NCBI GenBank assembly: GCA_016800925.1
Contig: JABCPU010000029.1
Span: forward strand, 1-64,000
Direction: 5' to 3'
Length of the DNA: 64,000 nt
Source of the DNA: Suillus spraguei
Lineage: Eukaryota; Basidiomycota; Agaricomycetes; Boletales; Suillaceae
Numbering within the stretch: the stretch's first letter is position 1; each line of letters begins with the position of its first letter. Below are positions 42,549 through 62,262 of the stretch, piece after piece. Both the position numbers and the translations under genes were made by a program. Under the pieces are notes generated by a model. That model ran no database searches and was not told the origin of the DNA. It saw nothing but the letters and a program-made list of their open reading frames with translations.

Positions 42549-44536
42549 CCTGGAGATGGATGAAAGGACGTGAGAGATTCTGAATCATTATCATCATGTG
42601 TTTATAAATGATTCCGCTCGTAAATGATATAAGCGGGTAGCTAATATGCTTCAGTAAGTATTTGATCACAGGGCTGGCGAAGCTCCGCTCCTATCATGAT
42701 AAACTATCATCAGACATAGTTTAAAAACTCGAGATAAGTTTGTTCGAAATTGTCCTCCCAAATGGCGAGTACTGGTGAGAGTTCAACAAGAGAGTATCCG
42801 ATACCCTGTTACTACTCCGCCACCCTCAGAAACCTTGTCGGCTCCGATAATTAGACGTTACTATTGCTTTCAATTACACGCTGTTGCACGAGATTTCTCA
42901 ACAAGTTGACGCTTTGCACTGAAACTTGAAGAGCCTCAGCAGCGTCACGAGTACGTACGAGTGTCCTCAAAGTGTGGTGACAATAATGTTCATTACTGTG
43001 TTGAGACGTTGAAGCTTAATTACAAGTTTCAATTACGTGGTAACTGGTTGTTCGGATTACTTTCTTGATTGACTCGTCCAGTGAGGCTTTCCTTATATAC
43101 CACTATCTTGCTCGCCTGTATCACGCTATCAATTTCACAGGAAGGAAGTCATTAGAGGAAAGGAGTGGAATTCAGAATGTACATGTGATCTTAGAGTGAT
43201 CGATGAATCTTTGCGGAGTGGTGGAAAACAGTGTAACTTGTCGGCACAAGAAGGTTTGAATCCGCCGCAGGGTTCCGTCCATGTGAGGATCTGTCGCCAT
43301 GTTTACAGTTTGACTGTGAAAAGCTGAGTCTTTTGCCTGTCTTTGCATCCCGGCAGATCTTGCTGTATTCTTGTTGTATCTGTTCGTCACAAATCTTGTT
43401 GAGTCAGGCGACTCGCGAGTACATCGCCGCAAACACAGACATATTTTTTGCCAGTCTTGAATAAACCAAGGACGCATTCGCCGCACTGGACGTTCACATT
43501 CTTTTCAAGGAATCAGGTCTCACTCAGTATTCACTACCATCGGCACTTCAAGAAAATACCCTACAAGTTGAGTGTATTCCTATCCATTCGATGATGACCT
43601 TACCAGTATCACGGCCCACAACCACACTATTCCATTATCACTTCCGCTCGCAATAGTGAACGGTTTCCCAATGTTATGGTCATCACAATGGCAGCTTCGT
43701 CCCTCTGGTTCTTCCAGTCGTTGCTTATTTGTGCACCAGGAGCGTGTAATGATGCGCCGTACAATGGGAAAGTGTACATCACATTGTCAGTATGGCCTTG
43801 CATCATCTGGCAGGGTTCGCGTGGCGTCCGTTGTATGTCCCAAAGCTCATAAAAATGGTGAATCACGTATAACCTCTGGACAGGTTAATCGACAAAAAAT
43901 GTGAGTCGACGATCTTATCTTTTTTAATTTTAGGGATCCTGACTCATAGGATGTTTTACTCAGTCAGCAGTATTCAAGCGAACTCAGCATTCCAATCACC
44001 AGTGAGAGGCACCGGCTATAAGTTGAGCCGGTGGATATTCGGTTTTGAGGGTCGAAGTTACATAGTACAAGTTCATTCGTATACGTTGTTGACCAAGGTG
44101 CGTCCAATTATGACACCCTGTATTCCTTTCAGCAGGCAACATCTTGACACAAACGGCAACAAGTACATTGTCTCTCCCATCTCCTCCCTTTGATGTTCTA
44201 AGCTCTTGCCACTCGCTCAACACTCTACACTGCACCCTTTGACCGTGATTTGATGTATATATATCTGCCATCTCTCGTGTAATTGAGTTATTCCCAAACA
44301 TTCTACCCCTTACATCAAGTTTGAAAGTTTCGCCACTGAGTCCAGTCAATCTCATTCTATTCATAGGGTGACATAGCTTCTACAAACCCTATCATTTGAT
44401 CACCCACAATATATTGTCGGCCAAACTTGTTGTTTAGGTATGAAATCACTACTTTTATCGTTGCGCACTTCATAATTAACTTATACACTGAAGCCATAAC
44501 AACTCGCTCTAATCCAACCTCGACTAAAGCTGATCG
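42549..44536. other. 2-kb spacer with a WD40 remnant
   Basis: Apart from the WD-repeat fragment listed separately, no gene is supportable. Open frames of about 100-120 codons at 43172-43486 and 43996-44364 (both minus) have no recognisable domain. Confidence 0.4.
43600..43870 (-). pseudogene. WD40-repeat relic
   Basis: Two WD-repeat pieces are seen on the minus strand in different frames: YELWDIQR followed by GHTDNV (about 43780-43850) and IASGSDNGIVWLWAV (about 43610-43655). Spacing suits adjacent WD repeats, but the frame changes between them and no further repeats or exons can be joined. It is probably a fragment of a decayed WD40 protein. Confidence 0.4.
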
Positions 44537-45923
44537 ATGGACAATTGTATGGTTCCACCATGCTCGTGCTCCGAGTTCCCGGAGGATGTGCAGACCGTGC
44601 CATCTAAGAGTATTCTGCAAGGCCACGTACAACTGGCAACAGATTACACCGTAGACGCAGACCCTGCGATTCTGGAAATTCAGAGCGTAGCTGCACCTGA
44701 CAGTCCCGATGGCCATGACACCGATGGGGGTAAAAAGCTACCCCAACAGTATCTGGAAACCATCTTGAGCACAAGGTACGGCATAAAACCTTGCTCGGAG
44801 TCGGTTTTGAAGTCTCTTTCGGGCGACAAGGGTGGTGTGCATGATGATGGCACGATACCCGCCGTCTCTGAAGCGCATATGTATATGGCGGAAAGACATG
44901 TCCAGTTACAACAGGAAGACCACGCGGCATCTATTCGGTATATATTCATGCATGTAAAAGAGAGCACCCTCATACCCCCCGCACTATGGGACCTGCATGA
45001 TTCCAATGTTTCTCTGAAGAAAGTCTCATATGCCTTCAGATTCGTCTACAAAGCCAAATTCAGACCGCCTGTCTACTGGATCATCCCCTTGGACGGACGT
45101 TACGTCCGGCCATGGATTCTCGTCGTCCCTCACGCCACAACAGTCCTTCAAGCCATTAGGAACAACTGGGGACCATCGTTGGAAGACCTCACCGGAAAAT
45201 TTGTCAATTTAGGGATCCCGTTCTCCACCCTACAGCTGTCTCTTAGTCTTCCTCGCAGACAGCCCCGCCCTAAGACTGTATTCGAAGATTTCAATCAACC
45301 ATCTTCATTTCAGCCCAACGCACATACCTACAAAATATACGAACTACGACGTGAAGGTTTCCTTCGGCATCCCCATGCGCGCGCTGCGCTTCTCAAGGGT
45401 GGCATCCTGTGGCGGTTATGCAAAGCATCTTTTGAAGAACGTATAGGCCTCGTCAACGGACCGTCCTCAGATGTGAAGATTTTCGGTGAGGCTAGACGGT
45501 TTTACTCGCCCGTCGACAATGTAGAAATAACCTGGACTGCTTGGGACGACATCCTTACCGATGATGAAGTGGACTTGATCTGTGGTGTATATCACGTTGC
45601 AGGTAAACCTCTAAATTTCATACGCGAACACTGAACTCATTCTGACCTCTCGATCAGTTGATGGACGAAACCAGTGGACGACGCTGTCATGGTGGCCACG
45701 GCCTAATGTATTCGATAAATGCAGCCTGTGGACGGGCTACTGGAATACTTCATGCGAGTCCTGGTTCCAGGAGCGTCTCGGTTTAATTCGTTGTGGGAAA
45801 GCTAAAATGTATAACACAAGAGATTGGAGGAGCAAGTTGAGGTTCTATCGAAGCAAGACGAAGCAGCTCTGTGACCTCACGGAGGAGGCAAGCGCTCGGT
45901 TCATTGGTGAGGTTCTTGGTTAA
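44537..45923 (+). CDS. Unrecognised 443-residue protein
   Basis: Two exons, 44537-45602 and 45658-45923, join in phase (g|tt giving Val) and encode 443 residues. I do not recognise a named domain. Visible features: a Cys-containing N-terminus, a long hydrophilic middle, an aromatic/Pro-rich block (FRPPVYWIIPLDGRYVRPW) followed by WGPSLEDLTGKFVNLGIPF, and Trp-rich stretches around the intron (EITWTAWDDILTDDEVDLIC, then WTTLSWWPRPN and LWTGYWN). The pattern recalls large uncharacterised agaricomycete families found in many copies near transposons, but that is an impression. The open length, one clean intron and the lack of lesions support a real gene. Confidence 0.65.
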
Positions 45924-46217
45924 GCTCACTAGTTGTCGTGCCTCCAATTGGTGTTTGTGCTCGTTACGCGCTACATTCGGTGACATAAATCAAGGGTAAA
46001 TTATTTAATTATGTAATACAGGCAAGGTTTTCTTGATGAGGCTGCAAGTAACTTGCGCAAATGAACGTCGGACTCATGTGGCACCAATTAACACTCATTA
46101 GTCATTTCGACCACGAGGCTGGGGCATTGGGCGTTTAAACTTTGAGCTCCTCTACTAAGCAATTTCCTGGGCAGGTGTTAGTATAAGTAGCACAGTGTTC
46201 GTTCTCTGAGCCTTACA

Positions 46218-47615
46218 ATGACTCGCATCAAGAACCAACATACATACAGACTAAAAAACTGTCAGGGAGGCACTGCTATTGACCTCGCGGGTCATGATAA
46301 CCACTCCAGTAAGCCTCATTCCTAGTATTTCAGCCTTCAAGAGTATCTTAAGCCTACGTTAATATTGCCTTAACTTAGTCTTCGGTTTTCGTCCCCACCA
46401 TGGCTCCAACCAGGCGGTAATACATTTACTTGCCATCCCACTGCGGACAGACCGTACTGATTAACTTCTCGGTTCTTAGTGGATCTTCCAGCAGGATGAT
46501 GACCAAGCTGGGTGGTTCATAAAGTCTGCTCGCACTGGGCAATACCTTGGAATTGAAGGCAACGCCGGTGTTGGCACCGAGGTCGTCGCTGTTCTGTTCC
46601 CTTTCAAGTGGGATATCAGAGACTCTGACGTCAAGAGCGCTAAAGGCGTCAGGTGCGCATGTCTTTCATGTCACGAATGTCTGGTTGTGAATCGATTCTT
46701 ATCGTTTTTTATTCGATAGGATATTAGCCCATGGCACAAATTTCAGCTTGGACCTTGACTGCGGAAGTTCGGCAAACCTCACTAAAATTAAGCTTTGGCG
46801 AAGCTGGCCTGGCCCCAATCAGATTTGGTCATTTACCGAGCGGATTTTCATTGAGGATGAGCATGCTTACAGCCTCAGAAATTGTCAGGGAGGCATGGCT
46901 GTCAACCTTTCAGGTGATGATAACCACTCCAGTAAGCATCATACTTGCTTTAGAAGTATCCCAAGCTAGCGCTAATATTTTCTTAACCTAGTCGACGGTT
47001 CTCGCCCCCATGATGACTACAGCCAGACGGTAATACGCTTACTTGCCACTCCACTGCAAACAGGTCGTACTAATTATCTTCTCGGTTCTTAGTGGATCTT
47101 CCAGCGGAATGATGACCAGAATGGGTGGTTCATAAAGTCTTCTCGCACTGGACAATACCTTGGAATTGAAGGCAATGTCCGTAATGGCACCAGGGTCGTT
47201 GCTGTTCCGTCCCCTTTCAAGTGGGATGTTAGAGGTTCCGACATGGAAAGTGCTGGAGGCATTAGGTGTGCATGTCTTTCATACTGCGCATATCTGGTCG
47301 TGAATTGATTCTTATTATTTCTTGTTCGGCAGGATATTGGCCCATGGCACGAATTTCAGCTTAGACCTCGACTATGAAAATCTGGCAAACCACGCGAAAA
47401 TTCAGCTCTGGGAAAGTTGGTCGGGCCCCAATCAAATTTGGGCATTTACTGAGCGGGTTTCCATTGAGGATCGACACACTTATAGCCTCAGAAATCGTCA
47501 GGGAGGTACCGGGGACCAAGACACCGATTTAAAGGCATGTTTCCATCCTAGGCTCGTATATTGTAATACAAACATACTCCATGCAGATCCTCCCCATCAC
47601 TACGACTGTCCGTGA
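46218..47615 (+). CDS. Double beta-trefoil (ricin B-type) lectin, probably N-terminal part of the TPR-HET gene
   Basis: Ricin B-like beta-trefoil sugar-binding protein. Seven exons join in phase: 46218-46308, 46379-46416, 46480-46652, 46720-46931, 46992-47029, 47093-47265, 47333-47615. Two full trefoil modules are seen. Each opens with YRLKNCQGGTAIDL or YSLRNCQGGMAVNL and has three QxW-type turns (NQ.WIFQ or SQTWIFQ; PFKWDIR or PFKWDVR; NQIWSFTER or NQIWAFTER). The intron positions are the same in both modules, so the gene arose by internal duplication. A third module starts (YSLRNRQGGTG) and stops. Read straight on, the frame ends at TGA 47613-47615, overlapping the first exon of the TPR-HET frame by 35 nt. 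Alternatively a 52-nt intron 47535-47586 (GC..AG) joins residue 309 in phase to the TPR-HET frame. No signal peptide is seen, so a cytoplasmic lectin is expected. Confidence 0.85.
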
Positions 47616-50600
47616 AGCATTGATTGTGGGGGACTTGTCGACAGCTGAAAAGCTACTCACCCAAGATATCAATACCGATTCCAACGACTATACTTCCTAC
47701 TCCCATCGCTCATTCGTTATGGCCCGACAACACGACTGGGATCATGCCCTTCAGGATGCAATCAAGGTGAGATTCATCGACTCATCATCGCCCCCTGACA
47801 AAAGTCTGATTCCATAATGACACAGTCCATCAGTATCCAGCCCTCGTTGACAGGCTATATCTCCAAGGGCTTTGCCCTCTGCGGAAAAGGTCATGTTCGG
47901 GGCGCGAGGGCAGCATTTGATGTTGCATCAATGTATACAGACCAGAATTTGCAGAGCACTCATTTTTTGCTCTTAATCAAGGTATATTAAAGTTGCACTC
48001 CATACTACCTACTTCATTCTGTGTTCCAGGCTATCGCTCTTTCCAGTGCCGATCGACATGACGAGGCAAACCTGCTTTTCAAAGAACTCACTATTGGTTG
48101 TCCGAACGTCGATACTCGCGCATGTCATATCGTGGAAGTAAGTGTCATGCAGTAGTGCTGGATTACGAACACTAATCTTTGCGACTTGTACATCAGACAT
48201 ATCTATGTGTTCAACTCGGAGTCAAAGCCTTGGAAGGCGCACATTATAGCGAGGCCGCTGAGCATTTCGCAACCGCTGTCAACTACAGCGCTTCATCATC
48301 GACATTGGTCATCTATGATATATACGAGGACTTGGTAGTGGTACGTTAACACACATCCGAAATTCTTTTCATGACTGAGTCCCTTGTCCAGCTCTTTGGC
48401 TGGGATCTCAAATTGCTGTGGCTCACTGCACACCAGAAACGGTGTGATACACTCCTTCGGGCAGGTAGACTTCAAGATGCCGTGGAATCGTATCGATACA
48501 TGATGGATACGAGTGATGATATTACAAAAGACAACTGCCTTGACTGGTCTAATGGCAAGTTTAGAGTTGGTAACAATATGCAGGCTACAATTCTCACCGC
48601 ATTTCACCCAGCTTTCACGGAAGAATGCAGCGCGCCCTTTCTTACTGATGGAGATGCTGCCCTTTCTGCAAACGATTATGACAGGGCTATTGAACTATAC
48701 TCGGCGGTGATTGACCTGGATTGTACATCCGATGTCGTCTTTGCGAATCGCAGCAAGGCAATGTTAGGCAAAATGCTATGGGAAGATGCGCTCCTGGACG
48801 CGCAAAAGGTGCAATGGCTTCTACGCTCCATAGCCATGCTGACATCTGAGATGCATAGGTCGTCGAACTCAATCCTTCGTCTTATGTTGGATACCAGTTG
48901 AGTCATACAGCGCTGCGTGGCGCACAAAGTTACGACAAAGCTATCGACGCTTTCACAACCATGCTGTCCAAGTTGGACGGTGCTCCCGAAGTGCAGATAC
49001 GAGGTAAGCCATGGAACACTCCTGCGTCGTCTAGAAATACTCATTTTGCTCTGAAGAACTGCGTCAGCAGTATGTCCATCCATCCAAAGCAAAAGACGAC
49101 ATCCAAAGAGCTGTTCGGAATGAACTCGAAAATGCTCCCCTTCGTCTGCTCAACACTTCTACGGGTCTTTTGTGCGATAGAACGGCACAAGTAAACGCAT
49201 TCAAAATGACTCCGGAGTACAATGAGCTTATTTCATTTCCAACGAAAGATTCGAACCTTCGAACGGAGCGCATCAAAGACGTAGTGGCGACGTACTTCCG
49301 TTGTGTCCTGCTGTCACACAGGTGGGAAGAAACGGAGGCACCGCTGCATGAGATCCAAGATAAAGTCGTGTACGAGTTGAACGGACATGATGGTATCGCG
49401 AAACTGCAGTCGTTCTGCAAAGTTGCTCGTGATGCCGGATATAGATGGGCATGGATGGACACATGCTGCATCGACAAGAGAAACAATACCGAGGTTCAAG
49501 AATCGATTAACTCCATGTTCGTCTGGTACCGTCACTCAGCACTCGTCATCGTCTATCTATGTGATGTCCCTCCTTCATCACAGCCAGGTGCACTAGCGAG
49601 GAGCATTTGGAACGAGCGAGGATGGACTTTTCAAGAATTTGTTGCTCCAAGAGTCGTCATCTTTTACCAGAAAGATTGGTCGTTATATCTTGGCGATATC
49701 TCTCCCAACCACAAAGAGTCGCCTGCAATCCTGAAAGAATTGGAGGATGCGACGGGCATAGATGCAGAGGCACTGGTGAGCTTCCGTCCAGGTATGAGTG
49801 GTGCCCGAGAGAAACTACAATGGGCATCGAAGCGCATCACCACTGTGCAGGAAGACGTTGCATATTCATTATTTGGCATCTTCGGTATCACCCTACCTGT
49901 CATTTATGGCGAGAAGAAGCAAAATGCGCTTGGACGGCTCCTACAGGAGATCGTGGCTCGCTCGGGTGATATCACTGTTCTCGACTGGATCGGACAACCT
50001 TCTGAGTTCAATAGCTGTCTTCCGGCCGATATCAACTCTTACACCACTCCTGCACGCATTCCTCCATCTTTGTCCGAAGATTATATTCACGCACAAATCT
50101 CTTCGCTGCGACAAACTATGCCGACAGATCTAGCATTGAAAATTTATAACCAGCTTGAAGAGCTGAGGGCTCCTCGCTTTGCAAACTGCAGACTTCATCT
50201 GCCCTGCATTTCATTCCGTGTCACGCAAGTCAGACGGAGACACGGTCTAGACCAGAATATCCCCATCACGTATGACATCAAGGCAGACGGACTTCACGAG
50301 CTGCTGATCACCGCTAAAGAGACCCTAGTTCAGTTCTTGCGGGCAAAGCCCGCTCGGCAGACGTTATTACTTGTCCGTCCATGGGATCGGCATCTCCTCG
50401 CTGACTATGCAGAGCAGCCTGACTTCACAGACGATACGGAGAGTATAGGAGATGAGACTGAGCCCAAGTCCCCGATGGATAACTCCCAGATGGACGAATC
50501 TGACAAGTCATCCGGCGGTTTACCTGTTGAAGAAGAACGTGGCTCACGAGCGTTGCGATTGATGGTTCGCCTCCAACAGCCTTTCGACGCATTTTTACTA

Positions 50601-50681
50601 GTGCGGCAGGGTGTTGGAGAATACAAAAGGGTTGCGTCGGACATAACATCATGCACACATCAGGGACATTGCTTCCGTTGA
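47581..50681 (+). CDS. TPR-HET domain protein, copy 1 (3' frameshift)
   Basis: HET (heterokaryon-incompatibility) domain protein with TPR-like repeats, a putative non-self-recognition effector. Exons: 47581-47766, 47826-47981, 48030-48137, 48197-48340, 48392-48554, 48612-48808, 48859-49003, 49057-50681, all in phase (907 residues). Residues 1-370 hold TPR-like helices (ALIVGDLSTAEKLLTQD; DGDAALSANDYDRAIELYSA; NPSSYVGYQLSHTALRGAQS). The intron after 48554 begins GCAAGT (GC..AG). The HET domain (about 445-640) has FRCVLLSHRWEE, YRWAWMDTCCIDK, ESINSMFVWYRHS, NERGWTFQEFVAP and DVAYSLFGIFGITLPVIYGE. The last part has SSGGLPVEEERGSRALRLM and ends CTHQGHCFR. Against copy 2 it lacks two bases near 50645-50655, so about the last 25 residues are in a different frame. 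The HET domain itself is intact, and this copy may still work. It may be one polypeptide with the upstream lectin. Confidence 0.88.
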
Positions 50682-51658
50682 TCACATGGACGTGGTACGG
50701 TAGAAATACTCTAGCTGTATTTTGAAGGCCAGTCATCTCTGACTGGTATTTGTTTATGCTTGGATGATCAAGCTTGCGTTGTTACATATAGCTCATGTGT
50801 AGATATCCATACCTTCAAAGAATATTGAGACCTATCCATTAGCACTACCTTCTCCTCAGCACCGTCATTCCGCGCTGTGCAGATTCATAACCAGGTCACT
50901 GGATTAAATTTCTTTGTAAGGCTAGTGTGAGTTCGAAGGGGAAAGTGAATAGAACGACTTACGAGAGACATGCTAGATGAGTAAAAAGTGATAGCGACAA
51001 GGAACAGATCAACGTAGTTAGGATACCAGTAGGGCCAGACTTTCGAGACTTTCGTAGGAGCATTCTGACGTGCTTTGAGCGGGGAATTCAAGGTGTAGGA
51101 GTCTTCCGTATTCCCACAAGGCTTGAGTAGGGACTGTACATGAGCCACTTATACTACGACCCTCATGGATAGGATGAACGATGATGTGAAAACGGCAGGC
51201 CATACTGTCCTATTCGTGCATGATACAACTAGGATTGTAGTACTGTAGCCATGCATGTTTTTACTGTAGTGAGCCCTCAGTAGGATCACAGATAGAACAA
51301 TGATATGGTGGTGAGCAGGAATGTGCTGGGGGGTAGTGTGGGAAATGTTAGAATCCAGGAGATGACCGGAAATGGCTATGTTTTGAGTGTAGTGACAAAG
51401 TTCCCACAAGTCAAAAAATGCGCCATGCAAGGCATGGTCATCATGCATGACCTGTGACTAACATGTGAGTAAAATAATAGAGCATGACTATGTGTACATC
51501 ATGATTACTGACTAGGATAGCAGTAGAACATGCTCTACACACTAGCGGAAGACGCTCAGTAAATCATATAGAACAATACTATATTGGTATGTAGCTACCT
51601 AGCGGAGGATGCTAGGGCACATCAGTAAGAATCGAGTACAAGTAGCAAGAATGTCTAC

Positions 51659-51695
51659 ACACCTCAGTAAGTCATGTAGAACAATACTGAGGTGT
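51659..51695. repeat. 11-bp perfect inverted repeat
   Basis: ACACCTCAGTA and TACTGAGGTGT face each other across a 15-nt loop. A related but non-palindromic copy of the loop (TAGAACAATACT) lies about 110 bp upstream. Role unknown. Confidence 0.7.
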
Positions 51696-52149
51696 TTGTA
51701 TGAGCGGCGCGAACTAAATACGGTGGGCATCAAGATAACGGAGAAATGATGTGCGGAGTTGTTCGCGTGGCCAGGAAGTAAGAAGAGGAAACGTAGCATA
51801 TGGTGTTGATGCTGATAACGTAATACAATGTCTAAAGGTAAAAGTCAGAATGTCCAACACATGCATGAGGTCTAGACTACAGTGACAGTAATATCATGCA
51901 TGAGTACCACAGCAGCAGGTGTATCAGTTCCACATTGGATAGCTCATCACCCGGCGTCAGTGGACTATAGCGAAGTTTCTCTGTTCAAACTTAAACTTTC
52001 AAGTCCATTGGTGTCTCAAGTGCTTGGGTGGCTTCAGCAGCTCAAATGGAGTCTCGCCAGTCAGCTATTTTGTGTGGCTTAAGGCACAGTGTAACCATGT
52101 CTTGTACTTGACGTCGTAAGAATTGAGCACGCCTAATTGAGCAACCAAG

Positions 52150-52415
52150 GTCCTCTAATTATAGGGCTTAGGAGTCACAGGTGGTAATGAAGGCGGGTAC
52201 AATCGGTGTCTATGACTAATAAGTCATTCTAGCTAACCTTGCGACTAACCTCCGGTCCACAGGCACCTCTAATTATGGGGCTTACGTGGGAGTCCCTGGC
52301 GAGAGAAGTAGAGGATGAAGGCAGGTGTCCTAATCGGTGTCTGTGACCAAGTCATTCTAGGTGTAATTACTGCTTCTACCGCGACCTATTCAACTTGCGA
52401 CTAACCTACGGCTCA
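52150..52415. repeat. Two-unit imperfect direct repeat
   Basis: The units (about 52152-52257 and 52267-52415) share CTCTAATTATRGGGCTTA, GATGAAGGC-type, ATCGGTGTCT, AAGTCATTCTAG and CTTGCGACTAACCT blocks in the same order. They end just before the second lectin start. Confidence 0.75.
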
Positions 52416-52437
52416 ACCTAGTGATTCTAGCACTACA

Positions 52438-53754
52438 ATGGCTCACATCAAGAACCAACACACGTACAGACTTAAAAACTATCAGGGAAGCACTGCTCTC
52501 GACCTCGCGGCTAATGATTCTAAACACTCCGGTAAGCATCATCTCCAGTGCTTCAGGAGTATCCTAAGCCAGCACTAATATTACCTTAACTTAGTTGTCG
52601 GTTTTCGCCCCCACTATGGCTCCAACCAGGCGGTAATGCGCTTGCTTGCCCATCCCACTGCGGACACGCCGTACTGATTAGCTTCTCGGTTCTAGTGGAT
52701 CTTCCAGCAGGATGACGACCAAGATGGGTGGTTCATAAAGTGCTCTCGCACTGGAGAATACCTTGGAATTGAAGGCAACGTCCGCAATGGCACCAGGGTT
52801 ATTGCTGTTCCGTCCCCTTTCAAGTGGGATGTCAGAGACTCCGACGTCGAAAGTGCTGAAGGCATTAGGTGAGCATGTCTGGTCGTGATTTAAGTCTTAT
52901 TTTAATATTATTCGGCAGGATATTGGTCCATGGCACGAATTTCAGCTTAGACCTCAGCTATGGAAATTCGGAAAGCCACACGAGAATTCAGCTTTGGAGA
53001 AGTTGGCCTGGCCCCAATCAGATTTGGGCACTTACCGAGCGGGTTTCCATTGAGGCTGAGCATGCTTACAGCCTCAGAAATTGTCAGAGAGGCACGGCTG
53101 TTAACCTTTCGGGTGATGACGACCACTCCAGTAAGCATCATACCTGCTTCAAAAGTATCCCAAGCTAGTGCTAATATTTACTTAACTTAGTCGACGGTTA
53201 TCGCCCCACGATGACTACAGCCAGGCGGTAATGCGCTTTCTTGCCATTTCACTACGGACAGGTCGTACTGATTAGCTTCTTGGTTTTAGTGGATCTTCCA
53301 GCAGGATGACGACCAGGATGGGTGGTCCATAAAGTCTTCTCGCACTGGAGAATACCTTGGAGTTGAAGGTGACGTCCGCAATGGCGTGAGGGTCGTTGCT
53401 GTTCCGTCTCTTTCAAGTGGGATGTTAGAGACACCGACAATGAAATTGTTGAAGGTATTATGTATGCATGTCTTTCATACCGCGCGTGTCTGGTCGTGAG
53501 TTCTTATTGTTTTTTTGTTCGGCAGGATATTGGTCCATGGCACAAATTTTAGCTTAGAACTCGATGACGGACATTCAGCAAACCACGCGAAAATTCAGCT
53601 CTGGGAATGTTGGTCTGGCCTCAATCAGATTTGGGTATTTACTGAGCGGGTTTCCACTGATGATCGGTACACTTACAGCCCCAGAAATCGTCAGGGAGGT
53701 ACTGGGGACCGAGATACCGGTTCAAAGGCATGTTTCCACCCTAGGTTTGTATAG
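52438..53754 (+). pseudogene. Double beta-trefoil lectin, copy 2 (second module frameshifted)
   Basis: Same layout as copy 1: exons 52438-52531, 52595-52632, 52696-52868, 52919-53130, about 53191-53227, about 53291-53463, 53527-53754. Module 1 is intact (YRLKNYQGSTALDL, NQAWIFQQDDD, PFKWDVR, NQIWALTER). In module 2 the short exon lost one C of a C-run (about 53203-53209; 37 nt instead of 38). The next exon lost another base (CCGTCTCTTTCAAG against CCGTCCCCTTTCAAG, about 53404-53415), and its donor moved from AG|GTGTGC to AT|GTATGC. The frame then stays open to TAG at 53752-53754. The same candidate 52-nt GC..AG intron (about 53728-53779) that would join it to the TPR-HET frame is kept. It is probably a decaying copy, with only the first trefoil intact. 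Confidence 0.8.
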
Positions 53755-53773
53755 TGTTATGCGAATATACTTC

Positions 53774-56700
53774 ATGCAGATCCTGCCCATCACTACGACT
53801 GTCCGCGAAGCATTGATCATGGGGGACTTGTCGACAGCTGAAAAGCTACTCACCCAAGATATCAACGCCGATTCCAACGACTATACTTCCTACTCCCATC
53901 GCTCATTCATTATGGCCCGACAACACGACTGGGATCATGCCCTTCAGGATGCAATCAAGGTGAGATTCATTGACTCATCATCGCCCCCTGACAAAGTCTG
54001 ACTTCATAATGACACAGTCCATCAGTATCCAGCCCTCGTTGACAGGCTATATCTCCAAGGGGTTTGCCCTCTGCGGAACGGGCCATGTTCGGGGCGCGAG
54101 GGCAGCATTTGATGTTGCATCAATGTATACAGACCAAAATTTGCAGAACACTCATTTTTTGCTCTTAATCAAGGTACATCACAGTTGCTTTGCATACTAT
54201 CTACTTCATTCCGTGTTTCAGGCTATTGCTCTCTACGGCGCCGATCAACATGAGGAGGCAGACCTGCTCCTCGAAGAACTCGCCATTGGTTGTTTGAACG
54301 CCAATACTCGCGCATGTCATATCGCGGAAGTAAGTATCGTGCGGTCACGCTGGATTATTAACACTAATCTTTGCGACTTGCACATTAGGCATATCTACGT
54401 GTTCAACTTGGAGTCAAAGCCTCAGAAGGCAAACATCACAGCGAAGCCGCAGAGCATTTCACTACCGCTGTCAACTGCAGCGCTTTATCATCGACATTGG
54501 GCACTCATGATGTATATGAGGACTTGATAGTTGTACGTCAATACACATCCGAAATTCTTTTCATAACTGAGTTCCTTGTCCAGCTCCTCGGCTGGGATCT
54601 CAAATCGTTATGGCTCACTGCACACCAAAAACGGTGTGATGCACTGCTTCTAGCAGGTAGACCTCAAGATGCTGTGAAATCGTACCGATTCATGATGGAT
54701 ACGAGTGATATTACAAAAGACAGTTGCCTTGACTGGTCCAACGGCAAGTCTAGAATTCGGAATGTCACGCAGGCTACGATCCTCACCGCATTTCTCCCAG
54801 CTTTCACGAAAGAATGCAGCACGCCCTTGCTTACTGATGGAGATGCTGCCCTTTCTGCAAACAATTATGACAGGGCTATTGAACTATACTCGGCGGTGAT
54901 CAAGCTGGATTGTACATCTTATGTCGTCTTTACGAATCGCAGCAAGGCAAACTTAGGTAAAGCGCTATGGGAAGATGCGCTCCGTGACGCGCAAAAGGTG
55001 CAATGGCTTCTACGTTTTCGTAGCTCATGTTGACTTCAGCGATGCCTAGGTCATCGAACTTAATCCTTCGTCTTATGTTGGATACCAGTTGAGTCATGCA
55101 GCGCTGCTTGGCGCACAACGTTACGAGAAAGCTATCGACGCTTTCACAACCATGTTGTCCAAGTTGGACGATGCTCCCGAAGCGCAGATACGAGGTAAGC
55201 CATGGAACTTTCCTGCATCGTCTCGAAATGCCTATCTCGTTCTGCAGATCTGCGTCAGCAGTATGTCAATCCATCCAAAGCAGAAGACGAGATTGAAAGA
55301 GCTGTTGGGACTGAACTCGAAAACGCTCCCCTACGTTTACTCAACACTTTCACGGGTTTTCTGTGCAATAGAGCGGCACAAAGAAATGCCTTCAAAACGA
55401 GTCCGGAGTATAATGAGCTTATTTCATTTCCAACGAAAGATTCGAACCATCGAACGGAGCGCATCAAGGACATAGTGGCGAAGTACTTCCGCTGTGTCCT
55501 GCTATCACACAGGTGGGAAAAAACAGAGGCGCTACTGCACGACATCCAAGACAAAGTTGTGTACGACTGAATGGACATGATGGTATCGCGAAACTGCAGT
55601 CATTTTGCAAAGTCGCTCGTGATGCCGGATTTAGATGGGCATGGATGGACACGTGCTGCATCGACAAGAAGGACCACACCGAGGTTCAAAAATCGATTAA
55701 CTCCATGTTCGTCTGGTACCGCCACTCAGCGCTCACCATCGTCTATCTATGCGATGTTCCTCCTTCATCCCAACCAGGTGCACTGACAAGAAGTGTTTGG
55801 AATGAGCGAGGATGGACTTTTCAAGAACTTGTCGCTCCAAAAGTTGTTATCTTTTATCAGAAAGATTGGTCGTTATATCTCGGCGATCTCTCTCCAAACC
55901 ACAAAGAGTCCACTGATATCATGGAGGAGTTAAAGGATGGGACGGGCATAGATGCACAGGCCCTGAAGACCTTCCATGCAGGTATGAGCGGCGCTCGAGA
56001 GAAATTGCAATGGGCATCGAAGCGCGTCGTCACTGAGCAGGAAGACGTTGCGTATTCATTATTTGGCATCTTCGGTATCACCCTACCTGTCATTTATGGT
56101 GAGAACAAGCAGAATGCGCTTGGGCGGCTCCTGCAGGAGATCGTAGCTCGCTCGGGCGACATCACTGTTCTAGACTGGATCGGACAATCTTCCGAGTTCA
56201 ATAGCTGTCTTCCAGCCCATATCACCTCTTACACCACTCCTCCGCGTATCCTTGCATCTTTGTCTGAAGACGATATTCACACAAAAGTCTCTTCGTTGCG
56301 ACAAATTATGCCTACAGATCTAGCATTGAAAATTTATAACCAGCTTGAAGAGCTGAGAGCTCCTCGCTTCGCAAACTGCAGACTTCATCTGCCTTGCATT
56401 TCATTCCGTGTCACGCAAGTCAGACGGAGGAGCGATCTAGCACAGGAGACTCCCATCACGTATGACATCAAGGCAGATGGACTTCACGACCTGCCGATCA
56501 CCGCTAAAGAGACCCTAGTTCAGTTCTTGCGGACAAAACCCGCTCGGCAGACGTTATTACTTGTCCGTCCATGGGATCGGCATCTCCTCGCTGACTATGC
56601 AGAGCAGCTTGACTTTACAGACGATACGGAGAGCATAGGAGATGAGACTGAGCCAACTCTCCGATGGGTAACTCCCAGATGGACGAATCTGACAAGTCAT

Positions 56701-56906
56701 CCGGCGGTTTACCTGTTGAAGAGGAACGTGGCTCACGAGCGTTGCGATTGATGGTTCGCCTCCAACAGCCTTTCGACGCATTTTTACTAGTGCAGCAGGG
56801 TGTTGGAGAATACAAAAGGGTTGCGTCGGACTATAACATTGTTGCACAAATCAAGGACATTGCTTCCGTTGATCACATGGACGTGGGTACGGTAGAAATA
56901 CTCTAG
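53774..56906 (+). pseudogene. TPR-HET domain protein, copy 2 (two frameshifts)
   Basis: Exons match copy 1: 53774-53959, 54018-54173, 54222-54329, 54389-54532, 54584-54743, 54801-54997, 55050-55194, 55248 onward. The TPR-like part is open and the GC..AG intron after 54743 is conserved. In the HET domain one base is missing at about 55566 (GTGTACGACTGAATGG against GTGTACGAGTTGAACGG), giving a stop at 55568-55570 just after the SHRW motif. The shifted frame then carries the rest of the HET domain (WAWMDTCCIDKKDHTEVQ, NERGWTFQELVAP, YSLFGIFGITLPVIYGEN) to a second one-base loss at about 56653-56660. After it the ancestral frame continues as SSGGLPVEEERGSRALRLM and ends GTVEIL at 56904-56906. That terminal segment is better kept here than in copy 1. 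As written, no full HET domain can be made. Confidence 0.85.
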
Positions 56907-56925
56907 CTGTATTTTTAAGGCCGGC

Positions 56926-57704: not shown

Positions 57705-59338
57705 ATGCCTCGGGAATCCGATCGTTCAAGGCTCCTTCGCAGCCTCAAACAAACTAGTCATGACCTTACTATCGCGCGATACATGGAGTTAGTTGAGTTT
57801 ATGGTAGATGAACTACTAGTAGATGAGGAGGAGGACTCATCAGAGATCAGCGACACTGCCAGTGGTCATAGTGGGTCTGATATCAGCACACGGACAGCAT
57901 CACCAGCATGGCCTGAATCCCCTACCTCATCGTCACATCTGCCTCGTCAATCAATTCCCTTGTATCACTCTCAACAGCATATTCGAGCGTCCTATCACAC
58001 GATATCCCAGACATGTGTGAATGAGTTTTTACACAGTTCATTGACGCAATCGGTGCATTGCATGATGAGGTGGAGAAATGTCGGGTCCTTACTGTCCATC
58101 CATGTCTGAGTCGCGCTCCTCAGCTACACTTGCTGGAGGAGTGGGCTCTGTTCTCAACTGACAAATTTCGACGCAAGCTTCGCATTGATGCAGACATATT
58201 TGCTGAACTTACGAAGTTAATCCAAGGGCACCCTATCTTCCATAACAACTCAAACAATCCCCAACTTCCCGTCGCAGTTCAGCTTGCTGTCTTTCTCAAT
58301 GGTGTCGGCCATTATGGCAATGCAGCAACTACTGAAGACATTTCTGACTGGGCCGGAGTGTCCGTAGGGACCGTCTATAACTGCTACAAACACGTGATGA
58401 TTGCGCTGTTGCAGCTTCATGACCGAGCCATTCATTTTGATCCGCTTGACCACGAGGACCAAATTGAATGAGAGCAAGCAAAAGCCTATGTAGAAAGAAA
58501 AACATGTCGTGAGTGGCATGGAGGTTTTCTTTGTGTAGATGGGACTCCATCCCCCTTACATGAAAAACCTGGTTGGCATGGGGAGGGTTTCTTTGACAAA
58601 AATTCGGACTACTCTTTGACAGCACAGGTAAGTATCAGTTCGGTGTGCAGCACAGTAACTTACAATTTAAAAGGTCGTTATATTCCCTCATAACCTTCGT
58701 ATTGTGGACTATGTCATTGGCGTACCTGGAAGTCTTCATGACTCGAATGTATTTGCACGAACGAGGGTTTCCTGGAACCCTGAGTCGTTTTTTGGTGCAG
58801 GAGAGTGGTTGTGGGCTGACTCGGCATATGCTGCATGAACCTGGTGTGTGCCACCATACAAATGGCCACCAGGAGGGAGCTTGACGCCAGACCAAAAGAT
58901 ATTCAATACTAACCTGTCGACGGTGAGTATCAATGGCAATATATATTAGTAGTCCTCACCCAATGTCTAGGTTTGTGTTCGTTCAGAACATTTTTTCGGC
59001 TCTATCAAAGGCCGGTTTCAATCCCTGCGGGAGCTTTGCATCCCAATCCAAAGCCAGAAGGACCTGACTACGCAAACATGTGGATCCGTTCATGCTTCGT
59101 TCTGCACAATTTAATCGTCGAAATTGAGGAAAAATCAAACCATGAGAACTCAAATGTCCGCTTCTATGAAGAACCTTGGAGGCCAAGGCAAACTGGTGCT
59201 GACGCTGATGCAGGAGAGGATGATCAGCGAGAGGGCGGTGGTGCAGTAGGTGATCAAACTTACATTGGAAGTGTGGGGCAGGATTTTCGCAACACGTTAA
59301 AGACATGGTTGCTTTCCTCGTTGGCGCAAAGGAATTAG
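57705..59338 (+). pseudogene. DDE_Tnp_4 (Harbinger/PIF-type) transposase, multiply broken
   Basis: The N-terminal part has LTIARYMELVEFMVDELL and an acidic/Ser-rich stretch. After a frame change near 58015-58040 come APQLHLLEEWALF, FRRKLRIDADIF, NNSNNPQLPVAVQLAVFLN and DWAGVSVGTVYNC. The DDE triad segments are FLCVDGTPSPL (Asp), WLWADSAYAA (Asp) and VRSEHFFGSIKGRFQSLREL (Glu). Introns are 58628-58673 and 58923-58970. Lesions: TGA at 58469-58471 after DQIE, TGA at 58836-58838 before TWCVPPYK, the N-terminal frame change, and another frame change near 59055-59070 before ANMWIRSCFVLHNLI. Both stops fit G:C to A:T transitions, as expected from deamination or RIP-like mutation. It is inactive. Confidence 0.85.
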
Positions 59339-59350
59339 CAAGTATATATG

Positions 59351-59580
59351 GCGCAAACCTGTAGCATTTAGGATTGTCAATTAGAAGCTCTTCCTCTTCT
59401 TTAGTACCCAACGAGGGAAATTTGCGCAAACCTGTAGTATTTATGGTCATCAATTAGAAGCTCTTCCTCTTCTTTAGTACCCAATGAGGGAAATTTGTGC
59501 AAACCTGTAGTATTTATGGTCGTCAATTAGAAGCTCTTCATCTTCTTTAGTACCCAATGAGGGAAATTTGCGCAAACCTA
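59351..59580. repeat. 73-bp minisatellite, three units plus a partial
   Basis: Units start GCGCAAACCT (or GTGC) at 59351, 59424, 59497 and 59570 (partial) and share CAATTAGAAGCTCTTC and TTCTTTAGTACCCAA. The three full units are exactly 73 bp, with few changes. They lie between the stop codons of the two convergent transposon genes. Confidence 0.95.
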
Positions 59581-59666
59581 TAGCAATCATGCTTGACATT
59601 TTCTCGAGAAAGTACCACTCATATTTCTAAATGAACAGTTGCATGATGACACGGTACGAACCTACT

Positions 59667-61284
59667 TCAGCTTTGATCAAAACCACGCTCCATTGCAATA
59701 CGACGAATCCGAGCCTCCTCCTCTTCTCGATGTGCATGAGACAGCTCGAGTTCAATTCTTGCAATCTCCATTTGCCGAGTCATCCTCTCCTGTTGGTGGT
59801 GATGATCTTGTTCAGCAAGACACATTGCATGCTCCCGCTCATCACGAGCACTGCGGGCCTTGAGATCACGAGCCCATATTTCGCTCTCGAGCTTCATGCG
59901 TTTATAGCGTTCATGCTCAGCACAAACCTCATGTTTGCTATCAAGGTGCAGCATCAGAGATTCTGCCGTTTGGGACATCCTTTCTGTGGTCTGGTCAAGA
60001 GTACTGCTGCCAGGGCGTTTGCGTGATGATGAGGGGGGACACTGAGATGCACTTGAAGGAGATGGACGAGACTGTTTTGTAGCAAGAGAAGGTGAACTTT
60101 CACGACTTCCCTTGAGTGAACTGACACGAAGAGACTGTAGTGCTCGGCTGGCACCAATATCTGAGTCCTCTGAGTCAATGGGCATAGACTGACGACTGGG
60201 TGAAGACTCCTTGTAATCGGAAAAAAAGACAGTGAATTGTCGACTGGGTTTTTTTTTGGCTACTGGCGAGTGTTCAGGAGAGTTTAATGATATCATGCCT
60301 GGGCCAAGTGCGTCAGAGGTTGAGATGGGAGGGAGCTGGGGTTGTTGGTACCACTGTGGCAATGGAACCAGTGAGAATGAATCTGGCATGTTGCTAGGAC
60401 TATGGTCCGAAGGTAATAGTGGCGATGGCTGGAGTGATGCTATGCAGGGGGGCTGGTCAACAATCATATCATCTGTCACACCATTGTCCATAGTGTGACT
60501 ATTAATCTCAACTATTTCTCCATCCTCAGGATCATCGTCTGCATGAGCATCATCGTCACCTGTAGCCGGTGGTTTTGAAATATTAAAATGTTCCAATGCA
60601 GCAGAGGCAAAGTCTTGCCCTGCATCTGCAGTAGAGAAGGCATGATTGAAGGCTGGATTGGTCTGCCACCAGCCATGAAGCTCAGGCCACCAGGGAAATT
60701 TCTCAAGCCTTGTATCTGATGGAGACATGATTAAGACATGCGCAAATCAACGCAGCAGAGACTTACCGATCAACGACTTCATCTTTGGATCCTCTTGAAG
60801 CTCTGCATATGTCTTTCCTGCTCCTGACTGCTTGAGGTCCTTATTAAACTCATTGTATTTTTTCCGGAGTCTGAAACATCTTATCAGTGATTCTAGTAGA
60901 CAGATGATGCAAGAACTGAATACTTATGTGCCAAAACGAGTTGAGACAGGTTTGATAAATGCCTTAGGGTCCTCCTTGAAGAGTCATTGAACCTCTGGAT
61001 CTTCATCATTTGAAAATACAGCTTGTGCAACCTGCAAATAGACACATCTCTTGAACTACCACTCTGCTTCTTCTTCCGACCTTGCTCCTTGGCATCCTTT
61101 GCTGAATCAGAGAAAAGCTTGATGCGGGCATCTTCATTTTCCTTGCACCAGGCAAGTAAGCGTTCAGTACGAGCACCATGGACCCCCTCCCAATGAATAG
61201 TACATTTCTTCCCAGTGTCCACACTAGTGGATGTATTGCCTTGGACTCCACCACCTCGACCTCTTTGACTTGTGCGTGACATGA
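59667..61284 (-). CDS. SANT/Myb-like partner gene of the Harbinger-type element
   Basis: Minus-strand gene, N-terminal exon from ATG at about 61282 (MSRTSQRGRGGG). It has a trihelix/Myb-like start (IHWEGVHGARTERLLAWCKE, LFSDSAKDAKEQGRKKK), the usual DNA-binding partner of Harbinger transposases. The following segment (VFSNDEDPEV, then LFKEDPKAFIKPVSTRFGT) lies in another frame with a TGA between its halves (about 60983-60985), so the 5' part is damaged. The large 3' exon (59667-60728) is open for 353 codons: FPWWPELHGWWQTNPAFNHA, a long Pro/Ser-rich acidic linker, then a C-terminal coiled coil rich in Arg/Glu/Gln (about the last 90 residues). Relatives are found next to DDE_Tnp_4 genes across agaricomycetes. 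The 3' part looks well kept, while the 5' part would not give a complete protein as written. Confidence 0.65.
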
Positions 61285-62262
61285 TACAGGGTGTTCTTAA
61301 CACAGCGATTAAGGATCAGATTGGAGCTTGACCACCATCGACGCCAATGACAACAACAAGCAGGCAGGGCATACTGGAGTTCGAAAGCTGCCGTACCGGC
61401 AGCATCCGAATTCGCAAATTTTGGCTGAGAATTTCTTTCTAGGTTTGACTTTGAGAACCGTTAATCTGCGGAAATCTAGATCTCCATCTTGTCTCTGCAT
61501 AGCCACGTGCTGCTCACTCCATGACATAGTAAGGCACGAGCGAAGTTTGGTCTTTATTGACGAGCGGAACATGCCGGCGTCTCTTGTTTCCGCTCCTCCA
61601 CTTCGACGCGTCTTGTTGTCGAGCTCTTTCCTTTCCCCACTCCCTGTTCACCATCACTCTACCACGTTTCGTGGTGCGCCTCGCATTATGCCCAAGCCGC
61701 TCCTGTAGACGTGACCAACATAATCTCCCTACCTAGATTCATGTGAGGAATCATAGCTCACCTCTTGGGTAGATCTCCGATCAGGGTTAGATAGTGTTTC
61801 GTCCCCCATTCTCTTAGTTCTCGTACTCTCCACTTTGTAGCCCCATCCCAATATACATTTTGCATTCAATTTTTTTTTTCAAATCACGTGATGTTTTGTT
61901 CGACTTCGTTGATTTTCACTGTTCAGTGACTTCAGTCTCAGGCAACAAAGTCCGAATCACGTGACTTTGGTTCGTTGATTTCAGCCAGACTCAGGCAAAG
62001 TACTGTCCAACTCACGTGATCTCTAGTTCAACTCTGTATGCTCAAGGTGAATTCACAAGATTTTGACCAGGTAACATCAACTTGACATTGAGCATTAAGT
62101 AAAAAATTGTTGTCGCAATAACTACATGGTTTAAACTGTAAAATAGGACACGAAGACATTAGAGTATCGAGGCATATGTACTGCAAGAAATGTGATTATT
62201 TTTTAGACCTGCACAGATTGATGTTTAGCGTGATAAAATGGACAGAACATTGAAACACGTAC
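61285..62262. other. Spacer with an E-box repeat cluster
   Basis: A plus-strand frame at 61328-61708 (126 codons) has no recognisable family. Degenerate direct repeats at about 61880-62025 each carry CACGTGA. A T-run lies at 61869-61879. Nothing else is seen. Confidence 0.45.
61885..62018. promoter_or_regulatory. Three CACGTGA E-boxes in degenerate direct repeats
   Basis: CACGTG occurs at 61885-61890, 61958-61963 and 62013-62018, each preceded by ATC or CTC and followed by A. GTTCGTTGATTT- and CAGACTCAGGCAA-like blocks repeat between them. This suits a bHLH (Cbf1/Pho4-type) site cluster, or may be a by-product of tandem duplication. Confidence 0.45.

Follow-up and report, generated by a model that had tools for sequence, protein, structure and literature searches.

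Recurrent lectin-TPR-HET genes of Suillus spraguei, with tandem ricin-B trefoils apparently in the place of a WD40 propeller

In the usual description of fungal cell-death receptors, the sensor consists of WD40, TPR or ankyrin repeats that follow a nucleotide-binding domain. A stretch of 64,000 nucleotides (nt) of the basidiomycete Suillus spraguei (hereafter the window; part of contig C469 in an assembly of 86 Mb and 1256 contigs) raises the question of whether a sugar-binding lectin can take the sensor place in a single HET protein. Two direct copies of approximately 4.5 kb each, A (46218-50681) and B (52438-56906), lie there in tandem on the + strand, and both comprise, in this order, a pair of ricin-B trefoils, TPRs and a HET domain. 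They are 87.7% identical over 4540 columns (blastn), and repeat families in the window show a spacing of about 6190 bp, which puts the copies about 6.19 kb apart. Two such direct copies had been proposed at 46213..56925 in a first-pass annotation made from the letters alone; the duplication was confirmed and the tandem cassette is present, with gene parts spanning 46218 to 56906. From the comparisons described below, a recurrent single-gene architecture, derived by replacement of WD40 repeats by tandem ricin-B lectins on a HET protein, appears to be real.

The preferred model of copy A has 15 exons and 14 introns of 48-70 nt (12 GT-AG and two GC-AG) and comprises 1214 codons. Six introns were placed in the lectin part and six were first modelled in the TPR-HET part, all of them GT-AG and of 48-70 nt. 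An alternative of 14 exons and 1233 codons, in which the in-frame 57-nt GC-AG intron at 48555-48611 is retained, was set aside, given that public family models omit these 57 nt and that a GC-AG intron fits them. The features are as follows.

46218..50681, + strand: copy A, gene with two lectin trefoils, TPRs and HET (spliced alignment without frameshift or stop; Pfam)
46218..46843, + strand: beta-trefoil 1, residues 1-142; Asp22 aligns with Asp22 of the lectin MpL, and GSNQ with GKNQ of MpL
46844..47459, + strand: beta-trefoil 2, residues 143-284; alpha-site Asp changed to Asn, gamma-site LDL Asp retained
47460..47534, + strand: truncated start of a third trefoil, then linker GDQDTDLK, whose codons end at the conserved intron
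47535..47586, + strand: phase-0 GC-AG junction intron of 52 nt (GCATGT...ATGCAG), homologous to the pre-TPR intron of WD40-type paralogues
47587..49056, + strand: TPR region including introns, among them the second GC-AG intron, 48555-48611 (Pfam, spliced alignment)
49308..49577, + strand: HET domain (positions 3-92 of Pfam PF06985)
49296..49748, + strand: predicted TIR-like alpha/beta fold region, about residues 80-230 of the part encoded at 49059-50678 (predicted model)
49635..49637, + strand: codon for the Glu in RGWTFQE; this column is invariant in a 66-row alignment
50642..50681, + strand: altered C-terminal end of copy A; the conserved tail, which ends in EIL, is not in frame
52438..56906, + strand: copy B, of the same layout and frame-broken (sequence comparison)

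Evidence for one gene across the lectin-TPR joint

At the joint, the lectin frame ends in ...QGGTGDQDTDLK, the bases GCATGT...ATGCAG follow, and ILPITTTVREAL continues in the TPR frame. Removal of these 52 nt as a phase-0 GC-AG intron, with the 57-nt segment left in place, gives a single open frame of 1233 codons with neither stop nor frameshift, and the ATG at which the TPR frame apparently starts lies within the final bases of that intron. If the intron is read through, the lectin frame stops at 47615, inside the first TPR exon (47587-47766), which bears out the earlier remark that no usable promoter gap separates the two parts. A 130-nt GTTTCC...AG intron (47457-47586) was also considered as the fusing intron and rejected, since the 52-nt GC-AG intron is common to the WD40 paralogues and is present in public models.

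A pattern search for this junction among the loci already collected, in which only GC or GT donors were allowed and a TPR-like start was required afterwards, recovered 13 distinct junctions. All six of the lectin type carry GC, and the seven of the WD40/linker type, with words such as ISEWAVPHPK preceding the intron and ILAITT following it, divide into five with GC and two with GT. Mapping likewise placed a GC donor at the junction of P0105 (WD40-TPR-HET), P0001 (lectin-TPR-HET) and P0151 (lectin-TPR). As a side observation, the junctions with GT (paralogues L016 and L030) and those with GC (the others found), together with the second GC-AG intron in the TPR region, which is as in public family models, form a small natural series for switching between GC and GT donors.

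Lectin and TPR-HET had been taken as one unit at the outset, and further evidence agrees with the in-frame splice. In C400 the junction intron is gone, and lectin and TPR share one uninterrupted frame (public model P0003). Three S. spraguei proteins, P0001, P0002 and P0003, assigned to C578, C1224 and C400 respectively, are publicly annotated as single lectin-TPR-HET chains. Furthermore, P0133, an intron-free open reading frame (ORF) of 401 aa on a contig of 2179 nt with source 'lgn', passes from a trefoil through DPK directly into ILPVTT, as predicted; we infer that it is transcript-derived, because the genomic relatives examined have introns at these places.

The same region could instead hold two genes, a stand-alone lectin that ends at stop 47615 and a downstream TPR-HET gene (starting, for example, at MARQ), which would merely lie close together. 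The public model of copy A, P0129 (194 aa), is exactly such a lone single-trefoil lectin; it omits three lectin exons and reads through the GC-AG intron to stop 47615. The same read-through tail occurs in six of 32 lectin matches, all from Suillus (P0123, P0124, P0126, P0129, P0131 and P0135), with continuation into TPR in two of the 32 (P0133 and P0151), and P0012, P0017 and P0036 are annotated from an internal MARK start. However, the tail corresponds to a translated intron that is also found in WD40-TPR genes, C400 is fused without it, P0133 crosses the joint free of introns, P0001 and P0151 are modelled as fused, and the intron measures 51 nt at some lectin loci and 52 nt at others, as non-coding DNA may. 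We thus regard two separate genes as distinctly unlikely and read the tails as gene models that miss the GC donor; so read, they hint at the same lectin-TPR joint in S. plorans, S. subaureus, S. cothurnatus and S. americanus.

Recurrence and relation to WD40-bearing paralogues

With regard to the rest of the genome, 55 lectin matches were located on eight contigs, and eight lectin arrays are followed by TPRs (A, B, C400, C556, C999, C311, C578 and C1224). The same order at eight arrays indicates that it is not due to chance. HET follows in five of the eight, the broken copy B counted, and only TPR was found in C311, C556 and C999. As C556 and C999 are 99.0% identical, and C578 and C1224 96-99% identical in long matching pieces, each pair may represent alleles, which would leave about six loci. 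A scan of the genome with PF14200 gave three matches elsewhere (two on C483 and one on C874) and missed the window, probably owing to its short exons.

Among public proteins, the homologue search employed a query of 1207 aa, close to an earlier model of copy A and without the truncated third trefoil and linker. Four lectin carriers were present among the listed proteins of 664-2112 aa at E<=0.001, namely the three single-chain S. spraguei proteins and P0088 of Rhizopogon salebrosus, in whose public model a single trefoil precedes a WD40 propeller, TPR and HET. Both recurrence and the occurrence of lectin, TPR and HET in one chain, which the initial annotation had proposed to check, were therefore found. 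The tandem pair itself is probably older than the split from S. decipiens, because that species has two such lectins, P0128, which is A-like (91% to A, 76% to B), and P0136, which is B-like (95% to B, 74% to A), on contigs of equal length and hence presumably on one contig; no S. decipiens protein was among the best 120 of 222 matches to the copy A query.

Two further groups of lectin loci were observed. The three-trefoil lectins of C556 (L070), C999 (L071) and C311 (L072) are followed by TPR with no HET match in the stretch examined, and the public model of the C311 locus, P0151, ends shortly after the TPRs; such a lectin-TPR protein without effector is perhaps a partner or a decoy. On C364 (L075, C364:45500-54500), three lectin matches stand in a row with no TPR match, and these are possible stand-alone donor lectins.

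The origin of the arrangement was approached through 38 homologues (of the 120 listed), four of them lectin-bearing. HET was found in 38/38, TPR_2 in 37/38 and WD40 in 30/38, and on these domain assignments the usual architecture of the family is WD40-TPR-HET. Where a paralogue has no lectin, its DNA mostly begins to resemble copy A no more than about 15 bases ahead of the junction intron. The same intron precedes the TPRs of the WD40-TPR-HET paralogues, which suggests that this intron is old and that, upstream of it, a lectin came to stand in for the WD40 propeller. Identity between copy A and C311 is 76-82% over a stretch that runs from trefoil 2 across the intron as far as the middle of TPR exon 1, and drops to 55-70% beyond. 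Against C534 (WD40 type), copy A shows 63% identity across the intron, 74% up to the same point in TPR exon 1 and 75-83% from there on. In the few loci compared, this pattern fits a lectin cassette that passed from one TPR backbone to another through a crossover within TPR exon 1.

The proposal that a lectin occupies the sensor place of an NOD-like receptor (NLR)-like layout devoid of a nucleotide-binding domain therefore stands in part. The lectin is located where the paralogues have the propeller, and no nucleotide-binding domain came up when copy A, P0001 and P0003 were scanned with Pfam; for P0088, 25 of 37 families were listed. The likeness to NLRs is one of logic only, as the WD40-TPR-HET norm of the family already has no such domain, and what was lost here is the propeller.

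A broader proposal, which we put forward tentatively and with considerable doubt, is that the sensors are swappable. The cassette of trefoils, GC-AG intron and first half of TPR exon 1 would recombine between TPR backbones with and without HET and replace WD40; the resulting cytosolic lectin receptors would detect glycans misplaced by damage or invasion and trigger HET-driven death, and splicing or retention of the intron could decide whether a lectin alone or the whole receptor is made.

Condition of the copies, selection and probable role

The domain assignments in copy A are above threshold. The lectin model (335 aa, to the stop) matched RicinB_lectin_2 (PF14200) at 4e-27 and 95.2 bits, and the TPR-HET model (926 aa) matched TPR_2 (7.8e-11) and HET (5.1e-11); every one of these matches exceeds its cut-off, HET (PF06985) with 43.6 bits against 22.5. 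The 'double beta-trefoil' of the first description proved accurate, there being two units of about 142 aa, after which a third breaks off at about 25 residues. The alignment of trefoil 1 with MpL (PDB 4ion; 1.5e-27) covers almost all of it, with Asp22 and the NQ motif retained, and the sugar-site residues of this trefoil are kept in 3/3 loci compared. TPR helices are confident in the predicted model of the paralogue P0001. The HET part gave no match to PDB by sequence up to E=1 and resembles TIR domains only through a weak fold match, obtained via the predicted model and the HET model; the Glu of RGWTFQE is a candidate counterpart of the TIR catalytic Glu.

Selection was estimated as pairwise Nei-Gojobori ratios of nonsynonymous to synonymous substitution rates (dN/dS) for the pairs A-C578, A-C400 and C578-C400, given here in that order. 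Values were 0.17, 0.17 and 0.23 in the HET region, 0.23, 0.27 and 0.34 from HET to the end, 0.54, 0.45 and 0.81 in the TPRs, and 0.83, 0.73 and 0.95 in trefoil 2; bootstrap draws in which trefoil 2 was equal to or below HET-to-end amounted to 0, 0.0022 and 0.0005. The coding sequences of C578 and C400 differ from P0001 and P0003 in a few residues at one TPR splice and in none within lectin or HET, and values for C534 were excluded, its model having a stop and misaligned stretches. As no lectin interval lay above 1 in the three pairs, these data point to a conserved effector and a fast or relaxed sensor and are no proof of diversifying selection.

Taken together, we consider it reasonably probable that copy A belongs to a Suillus family of intracellular sensor-TPR-HET proteins in which a lectin has replaced WD40, and that it acts through lectin-triggered HET death in the cytosol. 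Several observations weigh against this. At least four differences disable copy B, which cannot encode a full protein: its lectin exon 53191-53227 is 1 nt short, there is no GT donor after 53462, and 1-nt deletions lie near 55566 and 56652. In copy A, the frame is changed from about 50642 and the conserved C-terminal tail is replaced, the EIL tail being present in the copy B sequence and in P0001. No public protein of 664-2112 aa among the best 120 of 222 matches exceeds 76% identity to copy A, so that its TPR-HET part is seemingly unannotated as a long protein. The lectin match of P0003 falls just under the Pfam cut-off (24.8 against 25.6 bits), P0133 is of the HET-less subtype with no transcript-like sequence of the full lectin-TPR-HET type seen, and a lectin dN/dS near 1 also fits relaxed constraint.

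The two-copy cassette thus holds as a layout and not as two intact genes. Copy A may be working or recently damaged, and copy B, to judge from its letters, is decaying; given these alterations, the claim for the family rests mainly on C578 and C400 and not on the window alone. This condition lends some weight to the view that the C469 cassette is a pseudogene pair and that lectin-TPR-HET genes are transient by-products of turnover in a large HET family, devoid of a selected function, as do the three lectin-TPR loci without HET and the near-neutral lectin ratios. Nevertheless, HET shows strong constraint in pairwise comparison among A, C578 and C400, copy A is open for more than 1200 codons, and A-like and B-like lectins both persist in S. 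decipiens, so we hold this explanation to be unlikely.

A defensive role was also weighed, in which the lectin would target glycans of fungus-eating animals and TPR-HET would be toxic in the eater. Lectins of the MpL/CNL type have been proposed as defence proteins, and there are known cases of fungal lectins with a second active part attached. Yet the other TPR-HET family members mostly carry WD40, which fits an intracellular sensor-effector role, and in the published cases HET acts within the fungus; such a chimerolectin is very improbable.

The sensor-effector role that we favour would involve the following steps. The sequence comparisons indicate that a WD40 propeller was replaced by tandem MpL-type ricin-B trefoils upstream of the conserved phase-0 intron, and that the resulting lectin-TPR-HET gene was multiplied to about six loci. 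The protein would be cytosolic, its TPR array connecting the sensor with HET. Its lectin would bind a glycoconjugate that is foreign or out of place or, after the example of the het-B system of Podospora anserina, a polymorphic partner protein, and binding would change or cluster the protein, upon which the putatively TIR-like HET domain would start local cell death. As proposed in the first-pass annotation, lectin-TPR-HET proteins are candidates for a role in non-self-recognition.

The surroundings of the cassette were also inspected. The ORF directly upstream of copy A (44537-45634, 365 aa) has no second DNA match in the genome and no Pfam match. Just 3' of copy B, ORFs at 57705-58471 appear to resemble a Harbinger-type transposase. 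A 73-nt unit is present in three tandem copies at 59353-59591, and the segment 59600-61466 is a repeat, likely a mobile element, of which the genome has 23 or more further near-full-length copies at 94-98% identity. A second haplotype of the locus was sought through both flanks: 44000-46150 had no other DNA match in the genome, and 59600-62000 is mostly repeat and uninformative. Genome-wide, at least 150 HET matches (150 of 204 candidates scored) indicate a large HET repertoire.

Comparison with known systems

The first-pass annotation had not recognised the architecture as a described system, which does not hold as stated, since HET coupled to recognition by a lectin fold is published for het-B of the ascomycete P. 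anserina (PMC10890737). BH comprises HET, a HET-associated domain (HAD) and a C-terminal FB-lectin (actinoporin-like) fold; the lectin part is the most divergent and sets specificity against a PII-like protein, HET induces cell death, and the FB-lectin-type architecture accounts for 5-10% of HET proteins in Sordariales (PMC10890737). Like the Suillus protein, BH joins HET and a lectin fold in one chain that has no nucleotide-binding domain. Unlike it, BH has HET at the N-terminus and the lectin at the C-terminus, with no TPR mentioned; the Suillus protein carries N-terminal ricin-B trefoils (PF14200, PDB 4ion), TPRs between and HET after them. The adjacent partner gene of het-B is PII-like, and the Suillus neighbour ORF 44537-45634 is without Pfam match, no PII-specific search having been made. 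The Suillus protein, compared in this way, resembles het-B in outline and is not a member of the BH family, because it has a different lectin fold at the opposite protein end with TPR between. No description of a ricin-B-TPR-HET protein was found in the open-licence literature searched; we read HET with a lectin fold as already known, and ricin-B trefoils as sensor on a TPR-HET protein as new here. A second, unrelated lectin fold coupled to HET would suggest that lectins were recruited more than once.

The closest relatives are the Suillus WD40-TPR-HET proteins (P0005, P0004, P0105), which share the TPR-HET backbone and the same phase-0 pre-TPR intron, are 57-82% identical to the last exon of copy A, and have a WD40 propeller where copy A has the lectin. 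P0088 of R. salebrosus likewise carries an N-terminal ricin-B trefoil on a TPR-HET protein, but it is known from a public model only and has a single trefoil before a retained partial propeller; it probably represents a separate capture of a lectin in another genus. The HNWD proteins HET-E, HET-D and HET-R (HET-NACHT-WD40) also combine a HET effector with a variable beta-rich sensor; they differ in being NLRs with NACHT, an N-terminal HET and WD40 repeats rather than a lectin, and the Suillus protein is not counted as an NLR because the Pfam scans found no nucleotide-binding domain in it. Finally, MpL and CNL ricin-B lectins share with copy A the trefoil match and the sugar-site Asp of trefoil 1, but are stand-alone lectins of about 140 aa, whereas the trefoils here are in tandem and fused to TPR-HET. 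In copy A, the sensor place is thus taken by a defined lectin family whose structures have been solved and whose sugar sites are known, and the intron at the joint can still be recognised; since a single known substitution disables MpL-type sites (D22R leaves the alpha site of MpL inactive), it is testable whether HET-coupled lectins sense sugars or proteins.

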